A DNA stretch of 51,135 nt from Actinomycetota bacterium (GTDB lineage: Bacteria > Actinomycetota > Actinomycetes > Nanopelagicales > Nanopelagicaceae): positions 1 to 51,135 of the forward strand of contig CANBVO010000002.1 of NCBI GenBank assembly GCA_947372915.1, written 5' to 3'. A model generated the notes under the pieces. That model saw nothing but the letters and a program-made list of their open reading frames with translations, was not told where the DNA came from and ran no database searches. Within the stretch, counting starts at the first letter, position 1. Each line of letters starts with the position of its first letter. Shown one piece after another: positions 12,090-16,259 of the stretch. A program made the position numbers and the translations under genes.

Positions 12090-12118
12090 TCCCCAACTCT
12101 CCGTGGGGTAAGTAAGAA

Positions 12119-12146
12119 GCCCCCGTTCTCGAAAGAGAACGGGGGC
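12119..12146. terminator. Strong bidirectional hairpin between convergent genes
   Basis: Perfect 12-bp stem GCCCCCGTTCTC-GAAA-GAGAACGGGGGC. Confidence 0.85.
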
Positions 12147-12160
12147 TATCTCTTTAATAA

Positions 12161-13204
12161 TTATTTTGCTGGGATCTCTCCCGAACCACGAAGATTTAAA
12201 GTTGTGGGAATTTCAACATGCTTAGGTGCGCTCGTGTCTCCATTCAGTCGAGAAAAAAGTAAGTTTGCGGCAGCCTCTCCCATCGCCAGTACATCTTGCG
12301 CAACTAATGTCACTGGCGGATCAAACAAATCGGCGCCCGGAATCTCATCGAAACCAACCAATGCGACTCGGTGTTGCAAATTGCTATGGTGCAACGCTCG
12401 GAGTGCACCAATGGTTACCAAGTTTTGGCTAGCAAAAATTGCGGTTGGGCGATCTGGACGATTAAGCAAAGCTCGCAACGCAATCTCTGCTTCTTCTGGT
12501 GAGTGATATCCCTGAAGCACGTAATCCGGGTTGTAGGCAATCTTGTTTTCCTTCAACGCCCGTTTGTAGCCTTCCAATCGCTCGGCACCGGTATAAATTG
12601 TGGCATAGTCACCCAAATAAGCGATTTTGGTGTGGCCGTGATGAATGAGGTGCATGGTCGCCTCATGCGCACCCTTGGCATTGGTCGACACCACGGTGTC
12701 GGCAGCTACACCCGTTGGGGCACGGTCCACAAAGACCAGAGCGGTACCGGAATCAATTTCGCTTTGCAGATAACTTTGATCATCGCCTGCGGGAACAACA
12801 ATGAGGCCGTCGACCCTTCGAGAAACAAACGCCTCTGTGAGTTCTCGTTCGCGCTCGGGATCTTCGTCTAATGAGCCAGCCAGAACAATTACCTCGTGTT
12901 TGCGAGCAATCTCCTCAATCGCTCTGTGCAAAGAAGAGGAGAAAGGGTTGGCAATATTTTCAAGCAAAAGTCCAATGGTCTTGGTTTTCCCACCACTTCT
13001 GCGAAGTGAACCAGCGGAGAAATTAGGACGGTACCCTAATCGTTCAGCGGCTTGGCGAACTTTCTCGGCCGTATCCTGTGCAACATTTTCTTCACCATTA
13101 ATAACGCGCGAGACGGTCTTAAGGCTCGTTCCAGAAAGATCTGCGACATCACGCATGGTTGCTCTCACCCGGAGAGGGCGATGCGTTGAATTCTCTAAGC
13201 TCAT
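12161..13204 (-). CDS. LacI-family transcriptional regulator
   Basis: ATMRDVADLSGTSLKTVSRVINGEENVAQDTAEKVRQAAERLGYRPN HTH plus periplasmic-binding-like domain. Confidence 0.95.
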   Translation of the reverse strand: MSLENSTHRPLRVRATMRDVADLSGTSLKTVSRVINGEENVAQDTAEKVRQAAERLGYRPNFSAGSLRRSGGKTKTIGLLLENIANPFSSSLHRAIEEIARKHEVIVLAGSLDEDPERERELTEAFVSRRVDGLIVVPAGDDQSYLQSEIDSGTALVFVDRAPTGVAADTVVSTNAKGAHEATMHLIHHGHTKIAYLGDYATIYTGAERLEGYKRALKENKIAYNPDYVLQGYHSPEEAEIALRALLNRPDRPTAIFASQNLVTIGALRALHHSNLQHRVALVGFDEIPGADLFDPPVTLVAQDVLAMGEAAANLLFSRLNGDTSAPKHVEIPTTLNLRGSGEIPAK

Positions 13205-13213
13205 GTGGGAAGG

Positions 13214-14005
13214 CTACTTAGTTTCGATGAGGCCCGTGATAGTTCCTAGGAGTTTTTCAGCATCAAATGTAGAAGTTGGTGCATCTGCCACCACGCGACC
13301 AAGACGTAGCACGACAATTCGATCAGTTACTTGCAAAACGTGGGGCAAAGTGTGGGAAATGAAAACCACACCCAGACCACGTTCTTTGGCGCGCTTAATA
13401 ATCTGAAGTACTTCTGCCGCCTGGCGAGCACCAAGATGGTTGGTTGGTTCATCAAGAATGATGACCTTTCTCGCCCACGACACTGCTCTTCCGATAGCTA
13501 CGGCTTGACGCTGGCCACCGGAAAGTTGGGAAACTGACCTATTTGACGCTGGAACAGCAATACCCACACGTTCCAAATCTTCGTGAGCTTCTTTGTCCAT
13601 CTGCTTCTGCGAGAGAAAGCCCAATTTTCCAAGGATGCCCGAAACAACCTTTTCGCGACCAAGAAAGACGTTAGCGCTGACGGAAAGATCCGGCGCTAAT
13701 CCGGAATCTTGGTAGAGCGTCTCGATTCCCGCTTCAAGAGCGTCGTGTGGAGATTTCCAGACCACTGGCTTACCTTCGAGCAAAATCTCACCGCTACTTG
13801 GCTGGTGAGCGCCGGAAAGAGCCTTAACAAGTGTTGACTTGCCCGCGCCGTTATCGCCAACCAGACCAATAACTTCACCAGCGTGAATCTTAAAATTAAC
13901 GCCATCTAGCGCAACGACGGAGCCGTATTGTTTTCCGATATTACGAACTTCATAAAGCGGAGTTGTCGAATTACTCATCTCTCCCCCTCTTAATCTTTCG
14001 TCCAT
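13214..14005 (-). CDS. Sugar ABC transporter ATP-binding protein (single-NBD, FrcA/RbsA-like)
   Basis: GDNGAGKSTLVKAL Walker A, LSGGQRQAVAIGRA signature, VIILDEP Walker B; about 263 aa, one ATPase domain. Confidence 0.93.
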   Translation of the reverse strand: MDERLRGGEMSNSTTPLYEVRNIGKQYGSVVALDGVNFKIHAGEVIGLVGDNGAGKSTLVKALSGAHQPSSGEILLEGKPVVWKSPHDALEAGIETLYQDSGLAPDLSVSANVFLGREKVVSGILGKLGFLSQKQMDKEAHEDLERVGIAVPASNRSVSQLSGGQRQAVAIGRAVSWARKVIILDEPTNHLGARQAAEVLQIIKRAKERGLGVVFISHTLPHVLQVTDRIVVLRLGRVVADAPTSTFDAEKLLGTITGLIETK

Positions 14006-14958
14006 GTGCGAAAACCTTGAATAAAGACTGCTCCGGCAATCAGAACCGCAACAACAACTTGGTTCCAGTTAGGGGCAACACCGATAATGATCAAACCGCT
14101 AGTTACAGTGGTGAGAATGAGCGAACCAAGAACAGTGCCAGACATGCGGCCTACACCGCCTGATAGTGAAGCGCCACCAATAACTACTGCAGCAATCGCC
14201 ATGAGCTCACCGCTTGCTCCTGAACTTGGCGAACCTGAACCTAAGCGAATATACAGATACATGCCTGCTAGACCAGAGAGAACACCGGAGAGAACATAAA
14301 TTTTAGCGAGGTGAAGTTTTACGTTGATTCCGGCGCTACGAGCCGCGAATGAGTTAGAACCAATTGCGTAGGTATAGCGACCTAATTTAGCCTTGTGCAT
14401 AAAGAGCCCGCAGATGGCGACAATAACGATGATGATAATTCCTGGCGTATTGAGTGGACCAAACCAAGGAACTGAATATGAGATGGCTTTCTCTGGGCCT
14501 TCGCCTATTGGACCGCCGCCGGTGGTCACAATGCAGAGTCCGCGGGCAGCGCCCAACGTTGCGAGTGTCGCGACAAAGGGCACCATGCGCGCCTTGGTGA
14601 TGAGAAAAGCGTTGACGAGTCCGATGAGCAACCCGACACCCATCGCAATAAACGTTCCGACAAGAATTGTGAAATTTTGATTTTGACCGGCTGTGGTCAT
14701 AGAGCGCATTACAAATGCCGCCGCAACACCAGAGAGACCTACAGTTGAACCAACGGAGAGATCAATTCCACCCGACATAATGACGTAGGTTTCGCCGACA
14801 GCCATAAGAACAACTGGCGCCCAATCGGAGAGGATATTTCCAAAGACCGGGATACTAAAGAAAACTGGATTCTTAATACTAAAAAAGGCAACCATTACTG
14901 CAAGTGCGAGAACCAAGATGAACTGCTGATTCTTCAGCACTTCGCGTATGCGATTCAT
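13990..14958 (-). CDS. Sugar ABC transporter permease (RbsC/FrcC family)
   Basis: GETYVIMSGGIDLSVGSTVGLSG...GAARGLCIVTTGGGPIG...GSNSFAARSAGINV...AAVVIGGASLSGGVG. Confidence 0.93.
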   Translation of the reverse strand: MNRIREVLKNQQFILVLALAVMVAFFSIKNPVFFSIPVFGNILSDWAPVVLMAVGETYVIMSGGIDLSVGSTVGLSGVAAAFVMRSMTTAGQNQNFTILVGTFIAMGVGLLIGLVNAFLITKARMVPFVATLATLGAARGLCIVTTGGGPIGEGPEKAISYSVPWFGPLNTPGIIIIVIVAICGLFMHKAKLGRYTYAIGSNSFAARSAGINVKLHLAKIYVLSGVLSGLAGMYLYIRLGSGSPSSGASGELMAIAAVVIGGASLSGGVGRMSGTVLGSLILTTVTSGLIIIGVAPNWNQVVVAVLIAGAVFIQGFRTWTKD

Positions 14959-15066: not shown

Positions 15067-16059
15067 TTACTTCTGTACGTATGTGTACTTTGCTACATCT
15101 GCAGCAGAAGTAGAAGCGCTGATTACGAAGTTAGGGATAACTACGTTCTTTGCAGTCGCTGTCTTTCCGGTCTTGATGTATTCAACGAGGGTCTTGATTG
15201 CAAGCTTTGCTTCTGCAGCTGGATCTTGCGCAACAAGAGCGGTGATAACACCAGACTTGATGAGCTTGACGTTCTTTGCGTAAGCATCGTAGCCAACGAG
15301 AGCTACCTTGCCCTTGAGGCCCTTAGCTTGAATTGCGGCAGATGCGCCATCAGCGTTGGTTCCATCAATTGCGAAGATGCCGTTGAGCTTAGGGAACTTG
15401 GTCAACCAGTTGTTTACGTTTGTGTTAGCAACTGAAGGCTGTGATGAAGAGTAAGCCTTGTCGACGATCTTGATTCCTGGGTACTTCTTGGCGATAGCCT
15501 TTGAGAAGCCTTCGAGGCGAGCAACGTTTGTTGTTGCTGTTGCAGAAGTAAGACCAACAGCTACTTGGTAGCTGCCACCCTTCTTGTATCCAATGGCCTT
15601 TGCCATTGCATCTGCAGCCTTTGCGCCACCATCAGCGTTGTCGCCGGTGATGAATGAAACAACATCGGTAAGATCATTGACGTGAGTATCAACGTTGACC
15701 ACTGGAATGCCAGCTGTCTTTGCCTTTGTTACTGTGTTTTGAAGAGCAACTGGATCCGTTGGAATAAGAACCAAACCTGATGGATTTTGGGCAAGAACTT
15801 GGTCAGCAATAGGAATTTGTGTTGCTGGTGAGTAGACCGATGGGTCTCCCTGCCAGATAAGTGTGACGCCTGATGCCTTAGCTTGTGCTTCAGCGCCAAC
15901 CTTCATTGCTTGGAAGAATGGGTCTGATTCTGCGCCCATTACGAATGCGATGGTGATTTTGTCTGCTGCGCGAGCTGCAGTTGCAGTTACGCCAGCAACG
16001 AGTGCACCAGCAGCTGCAAGAGCTACGAGAGCTGCAGCTTTCTTTGATGTACGGATCAT
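15067..16059 (-). CDS. Sugar ABC transporter substrate-binding protein (RbsB/FrcB-like)
   Basis: Signal peptide ...AAALVALAAAGALVAGVTATAARAADK, ITIAFVMGAESDPFFQAMKVGAEAQAKASGV; SD AAAGGA. Confidence 0.93.
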   Translation of the reverse strand: MIRTSKKAAALVALAAAGALVAGVTATAARAADKITIAFVMGAESDPFFQAMKVGAEAQAKASGVTLIWQGDPSVYSPATQIPIADQVLAQNPSGLVLIPTDPVALQNTVTKAKTAGIPVVNVDTHVNDLTDVVSFITGDNADGGAKAADAMAKAIGYKKGGSYQVAVGLTSATATTNVARLEGFSKAIAKKYPGIKIVDKAYSSSQPSVANTNVNNWLTKFPKLNGIFAIDGTNADGASAAIQAKGLKGKVALVGYDAYAKNVKLIKSGVITALVAQDPAAEAKLAIKTLVEYIKTGKTATAKNVVIPNFVISASTSAADVAKYTYVQK

Positions 16060-16144
16060 GTATATGTTCCTTTCAGAACCTTTTCACTGTCAGGAACCCC
16101 CGTTGAGCCCTGGACCTTCGCCTTCAGCGGGGTGGTGCCCCACT

Positions 16145-16158
16145 TGACAACGATGTCA
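16145..16158. promoter_or_regulatory. LacI-type operator O1 (TGACAACGATGTCA)
   Basis: Near-palindrome with central CG; overlaps predicted transcription start of the ABC operon. Confidence 0.75.
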
Positions 16159-16162
16159 ACGG

Positions 16163-16191
16163 ATTACACACTTGTCTGACAACGATGTCAA
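16163..16191 (-). promoter_or_regulatory. Sigma70-type promoter for the sugar ABC operon
   Basis: On minus strand TTGACA (16191-16186), 17-nt spacer, TGTAAT (16168-16163). Confidence 0.7.
16177..16190. promoter_or_regulatory. LacI-type operator O2 (TGACAACGATGTCA)
   Basis: Second identical copy, 32 bp from O1, overlapping the -35 hexamer. Confidence 0.75.
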
Positions 16192-16259
16192 TCGTTTTCT
16201 CGCCTAGGGGAGATAACGAGTTGATAACAAATAGATGCGAGAGATTGGCGGAAACAGAG

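Follow-up and report, generated by a model that had tools for sequence, protein, structure and literature searches.

A sugar ABC operon of the CUT2 type in an actinobacterial genome is very probably controlled by its own LacI-family repressor acting at two operators, O1 and O2, the second of them specific to one lineage, with a likely second input of the GlnR or MtrA type entering at a direct repeat further upstream. The operon lies in what we call the window, the whole stretch of 51,135 nucleotides that was analysed, and its features are listed in Table 1. The source organism is taken to be a small-genome actinobacterium, probably one of the freshwater Nanopelagicales; the window and most of the related genomes compared with it come from draft assemblies.

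Table 1. Features of the sugar ABC operon and of its upstream region (window coordinates).
Feature	Position	Strand	Basis or remark
O1, predicted LacI-family operator	16145-16158		exact sequence; spans about -2 to +12 of the predicted start
O2, second predicted operator, identical to O1	16177-16190		overlaps -35 box; orientation as O1
-35 hexamer TTGACA	16186-16191	-	sequence; TTGAC also in most O2-less relatives
-10 hexamer TGTAAT	16163-16168	-	sequence; 17-bp spacer; predicted start about 16156
11-bp direct repeat, candidate GlnR-type (GlnR or MtrA) box	16213-16228		GTTATCAACTCGTTAT (minus strand), ATAACGAGTTGATAAC (plus strand)
Sugar substrate-binding protein (Peripla_BP_4)	15067-16059	-	profile match
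Sugar ABC permease (BPD_transp_2)	13990-14958	-	profile match
Half-size sugar ABC ATPase, 263 aa	13214-14005	-	profile match and alignment
LacI-family repressor, last operon gene	12161-13204	-	9 bp after ATPase gene
Terminator-like hairpin after lacI, 13 pairs	12118-12147
Divergent small gene, 143 aa	16260-16691	+	without known family; conserved at same place in relatives

Results

The genes run on the minus strand in the order substrate-binding protein (SBP), permease, ATPase and LacI, so that the initial annotation was correct in describing a sugar ABC operon with a LacI regulator as its last gene. The transporter is of the CUT2 type, with a Peripla_BP_4 SBP, a BPD_transp_2 permease and a half-size sugar ATPase, whose alignment with full-size sugar ATPases covers roughly the first 240 of their about 500 positions. 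The LacI protein has a helix-turn-helix domain (PF00356) and a periplasmic-binding-type sensor domain (PF13377), both above cut-off. Because lacI follows so closely behind the ATPase gene, it is expected to be co-transcribed with the transporter genes, and the reading of the system as autoregulated follows from this expectation. The divergent small gene, which has no Pfam or NCBIfam match, adjoins the operon in 15 of the 18 regions from the family and is possibly also affected by the intergenic sites that it shares with the operon. A start codon at 16185 for this open reading frame was ruled out, as the similarity in relatives starts at or after 16260.

A check of the sequence confirmed that TGACAACGATGTCA occurs twice as an identical 14-mer at O1 and O2; the identity extends to a 15-mer, TGACAACGATGTCAA, at 16145-16159 and 16177-16191. 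The start-to-start spacing is 32 bp, or ~3.05 helical turns, which bears out the three turns originally noted. Both sites are even palindromes with a central CG at the promoter of their own operon. We also ran the genome scan for further sites that had been proposed earlier. The 1.3-Mb draft genome holds no exact copy of TGACAACGATGTCA beyond O1 and O2, and the near-matches (one site with one mismatch and all sites with two) each lie within an open reading frame. The regulator, thus, looks dedicated to the sugar operon. Within the literature collection searched, no paper contained the literal operator TGACAACGTTGTCA.

The predicted promoter, which is flanked by O1 and O2 and reads into the operon, agrees with the consensus at all six positions of the -35 hexamer and at five of six of the -10 hexamer, the mismatch being at position 2. 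A strict sigma-70 scan did not list it, because the scan required an A at that -10 position; the same departure could mean that the promoter is of low strength or lies at a slightly different place. Its predicted start is about 97 bp upstream of the ATG of the first gene at 16059. In the upstream regions of the family, the -10 equivalents TGTAAT, TTTGAT, TATCTT, TACCTT or TTTAAT occur at the same place. The consensus-like promoter proposed initially is supported by retention of the -35 element where O2 is missing. Two features of the leader (16060-16156, minus strand) are conserved in three relatives: a CAGGGCTCAtCGGGGG stretch and, surrounding the ribosome-binding site, GTTCTGAAAGGAAC. Its predicted RNA fold was unremarkable (z = -1.5), and the sole match in an Rfam search of the leader was a chance lncRNA below cut-off.

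Comparison with relatives supports the operator. A LacI orthologue is present in 24 of the 296 genomes of the family, in 4 of its 17 genera, with the same gene order. All 18 complete upstream regions contain the operator with at least 12 of 14 matches (shuffled mean 0.06, maximum 2). In each of them one operator, a GACAACGTTGTC-type site at the position of O1, stands just after the -10 element, in keeping with the earlier placing of O1 over the predicted start; the commonest form in the relatives is GGACAACGTTGTCT. Conservation extends well beyond the family: TGACAACGTTGTCA, with at most one mismatch, is found upstream of lacI in 59 of 80 GTDB loci (permuted half-sites, mean 0.01), which range from Nocardioides, Actinoplanes and Amycolatopsis to Acidimicrobiia and a few Chloroflexota. 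Nearly all of these 80 LacI proteins share the recognition helix S[LI]KTVSRV, a conservation that is not independent, as the helix was partly requested by the search pattern. The presence of O1 in 18 of 18 family regions and of the operator beside LacI homologues across Actinomycetota supports the placing of a LacI operator at the start site as well as autoregulation by the LacI of the operon, as had been suggested before.

The genome encodes at least two further LacI proteins, about 32% identical to that of the operon, and one of these paralogues could in principle occupy the operators instead. We consider this very improbable, since the operator accompanies the linked LacI throughout the family and the phylum, and no other intergenic site of the genome contains it. 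It is the LacI of the operon, then, that probably binds both identical sites.

O2 has a far narrower distribution than O1. In G023 it is exact, in the same orientation and at the same 32-bp spacing; in G017 each site has one mismatch and the spacing is 33 bp. These two genomes and that of the window (G000) form one LacI subclade (support 94/91), consistent with a single origin of O2 on the LacI tree. At the place of O2 the other regions have 5-10 of 14 matches, and none exceeds 10; G094, one member of the sister group of the carriers, has 10 of 14 at 33 bp. Most family regions without O2 retain the TTGAC of the -35 element. O2 is not essential, because most relatives have O1 alone. It could be argued that only O1 functions in the window too, and that O2 arose by chance where the -35 TTGACA coincides with the TGACA half-site, since most orthologues lack O2 and have TTGAC anyway as part of the -35 box. 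This appears improbable. The match is 14 of 14 in G000 and G023 and 13 of 14 in G017, including the half that points away from the -35 box and the same asymmetric centre, and the LacI proteins of the O2-bearing genomes are only about 66% identical to one another. As TTGACA already provides one half of an operator and O2 is limited to one subclade, a functional O2 probably grew on the -35 hexamer. One further relative, G014 (L027), belongs to the same genus as the window, yet its LacI clusters with those from other genera, an indication that its operon was acquired by horizontal transfer.

The spacing is close to a multiple of the helical turn in all three carriers, and cooperative binding at O1 and O2, proposed in the initial annotation, is plausible. 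LacI-family regulators surveyed previously show peaks of intersite distance at 13, 22 and 32 bp, and the two longer distances were interpreted as cooperative binding; 72% of them are autoregulated, and about 20% of operons have more than one site (PMC4052901). The arrangement in the window is, thus, of a known type, because 32 bp is a published peak. Residues 15-341 of the 347 of LacI align with CcpA and RbsR, and the protein also aligns over its full length with PurR. This alignment leaves no extension, so that the C-terminal tetramerisation tail of the E. coli LacI type is absent. Since there is no room for such a tail, any cooperativity would be between neighbouring dimers.

Upstream of the operators lies an 11-bp direct repeat, GTTAT-N6-GTTAT, which has at least 9 of 10 letters in 12 of the 18 family regions (shuffles, 0.08). 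It is 69-71 bp upstream of O1 in most orthologues, and 72 bp from the promoter-proximal operator in G094. The element resembles a GlnR-type box. The amtB promoters of the genus carry GTAAC-N6-GTAAC, and TGTAACGAGTTCGTAACA of amtB resembles GATAACGAGTTGATAACA on the plus strand of the window; the polarity of the repeat in the window differs from that of the amtB repeat. Both candidate regulators are encoded in the genome. The GlnR protein (G000:C97) has as its best PDB match 8hih (7e-82), a GlnR-RNA polymerase complex, and also matches 4o1i and 4o1h, the last of these named GlnR; MtrA (G000:C3) scores above its NCBIfam cut-off. The MtrA box has been described as GtnAcC-n5-GTnAcn (PMC13189361), and GlnR boxes are also bound by MtrA (PMC6988585).

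Alternatively, the repeat might be recognised by some regulator apart from GlnR and MtrA, or might serve the divergent small gene. The last letter of the half-site is unlike the published GTnAC boxes, the repeat is about 30 bp from the start of the small gene, and six OmpR-type proteins are encoded in the genome. On the other hand, G023, G264 and G241 retain the repeat while lacking the small gene, and its 11-bp direct-repeat design and TAAC-N7-TAAC core match both the amtB boxes of the genus and the GlnR box of Streptomyces venezuelae, GTnAC-n6-GTnAC (PMC10704036). We regard this alternative as rather doubtful, if far from negligible, and read the repeat as a probable GlnR/MtrA-type box through which the promoter likely receives an extra, global input.

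Similar or triple repeats also precede other transporter operons in the family, including sugar transporter genes. A loose search for triple repeats over the family gave 25 matches, which can serve as supporting evidence only, because they are of mixed kind and some are simple tandem repeats; with a tighter pattern, two of the six matches in the genus (G001 and G021) lie inside an orthologous coding gene. A strict GTTAY repeat search in the genome of the window gave one other match, within a gene. Many sugar ABC transporters are under GlnR control elsewhere, including malEFG beside the MalR repressor.

Triple GTTAY-N6 repeats occur in two genera upstream of another sugar SBP gene (near position 1501 in L154, L160, L169 and L173, and at 638 in L172), and the gene divergent from this SBP gene resembles, by eye, a sugar isomerase. 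GTTAT repeats with an 11-bp period are found directly upstream of a permease-like gene in L163, L166 and L168 (genus g10).

Ribose, fructose, inositol and xylose had been listed as candidate sugars, and the gene neighbourhood narrows this list weakly towards a ketohexose such as fructose. A fructokinase-like PfkB gene directly follows lacI in G265, G267 and L071, and a gene of the mannitol-dehydrogenase family adjoins the operon in G014. A Shinella plasmid operon (L219), with an SBP 48% identical to that of the window, has PfkB, LacI, HUMPS-family and SIS-domain genes, a set that suggests a hexulose-phosphate route. SBP relatives with solved structures are binders of ribose, allose and related sugars. 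The genome of the window encodes a related PfkB elsewhere, with no operator nearby, and a mycothiol-type inositol phosphate synthase.

Discussion

In the mechanism that we infer, LacI dimers would, in the absence of the sugar, occupy O1 at the start site and O2 at the -35 box and block RNA polymerase, and the imported sugar or a product of it would release them. The three-turn spacing would let the two dimers sit on the same face of the helix, and the repressor, made from the same transcript, would limit its own supply. The GlnR- or MtrA-type repeat, at about -65, would add a second input reporting global nutrient status, most likely an activating one.

The order SBP, permease and half-size ATPase is that of the FrcBCA-type fructose (CUT2) transporters. 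The likeness to these extends to the fructokinase-like PfkB found beside lacI in some relatives; the predicted regulator of the window, in contrast, is of the LacI type, and fructose is a candidate substrate only.

The predicted LacI autoregulatory promoter with tandem sites is an ordinary, already known design. It shares with LacI-family local regulons the even palindrome with a central CG, autoregulation, the 32-bp intersite distance and a site in the range of 30-140 bp from the start codon (PMC4052901). It differs from the tandem regulons of that survey in that O2 has letters in common with the -35 box and is limited to one subclade. The closest parallel to the combined control is the malEFG-malR promoter of Saccharopolyspora erythraea and Streptomyces coelicolor, where sites for the sugar-responsive repressor MalR and a GlnR-type box likewise share one intergenic region upstream of a sugar ABC operon (PMC6988585). 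In the window, however, lacI is itself one of the genes of the transporter operon instead of diverging from it, the sugar differs, and the candidate GlnR-type box lies further upstream, clear of the operators.

The results provide a supported regulator-operator pair for a LacI lineage that spans Actinomycetota, which should aid the prediction of regulons in mostly uncultured bacteria. A broader idea, which we put forward tentatively as quite conceivable, is that in these small-genome actinobacteria the altered GTTAT-N6-GTTAT repeat of the GlnR/MtrA type is a family-wide control of sugar uptake genes, coupling the import of carbon to nitrogen status; LacI repression would be superimposed on this control, and one lineage would have gained a second operator out of its -35 box. 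Should the GlnR-type repeat prove real, sugar uptake in the family would be predicted to respond to nitrogen status.
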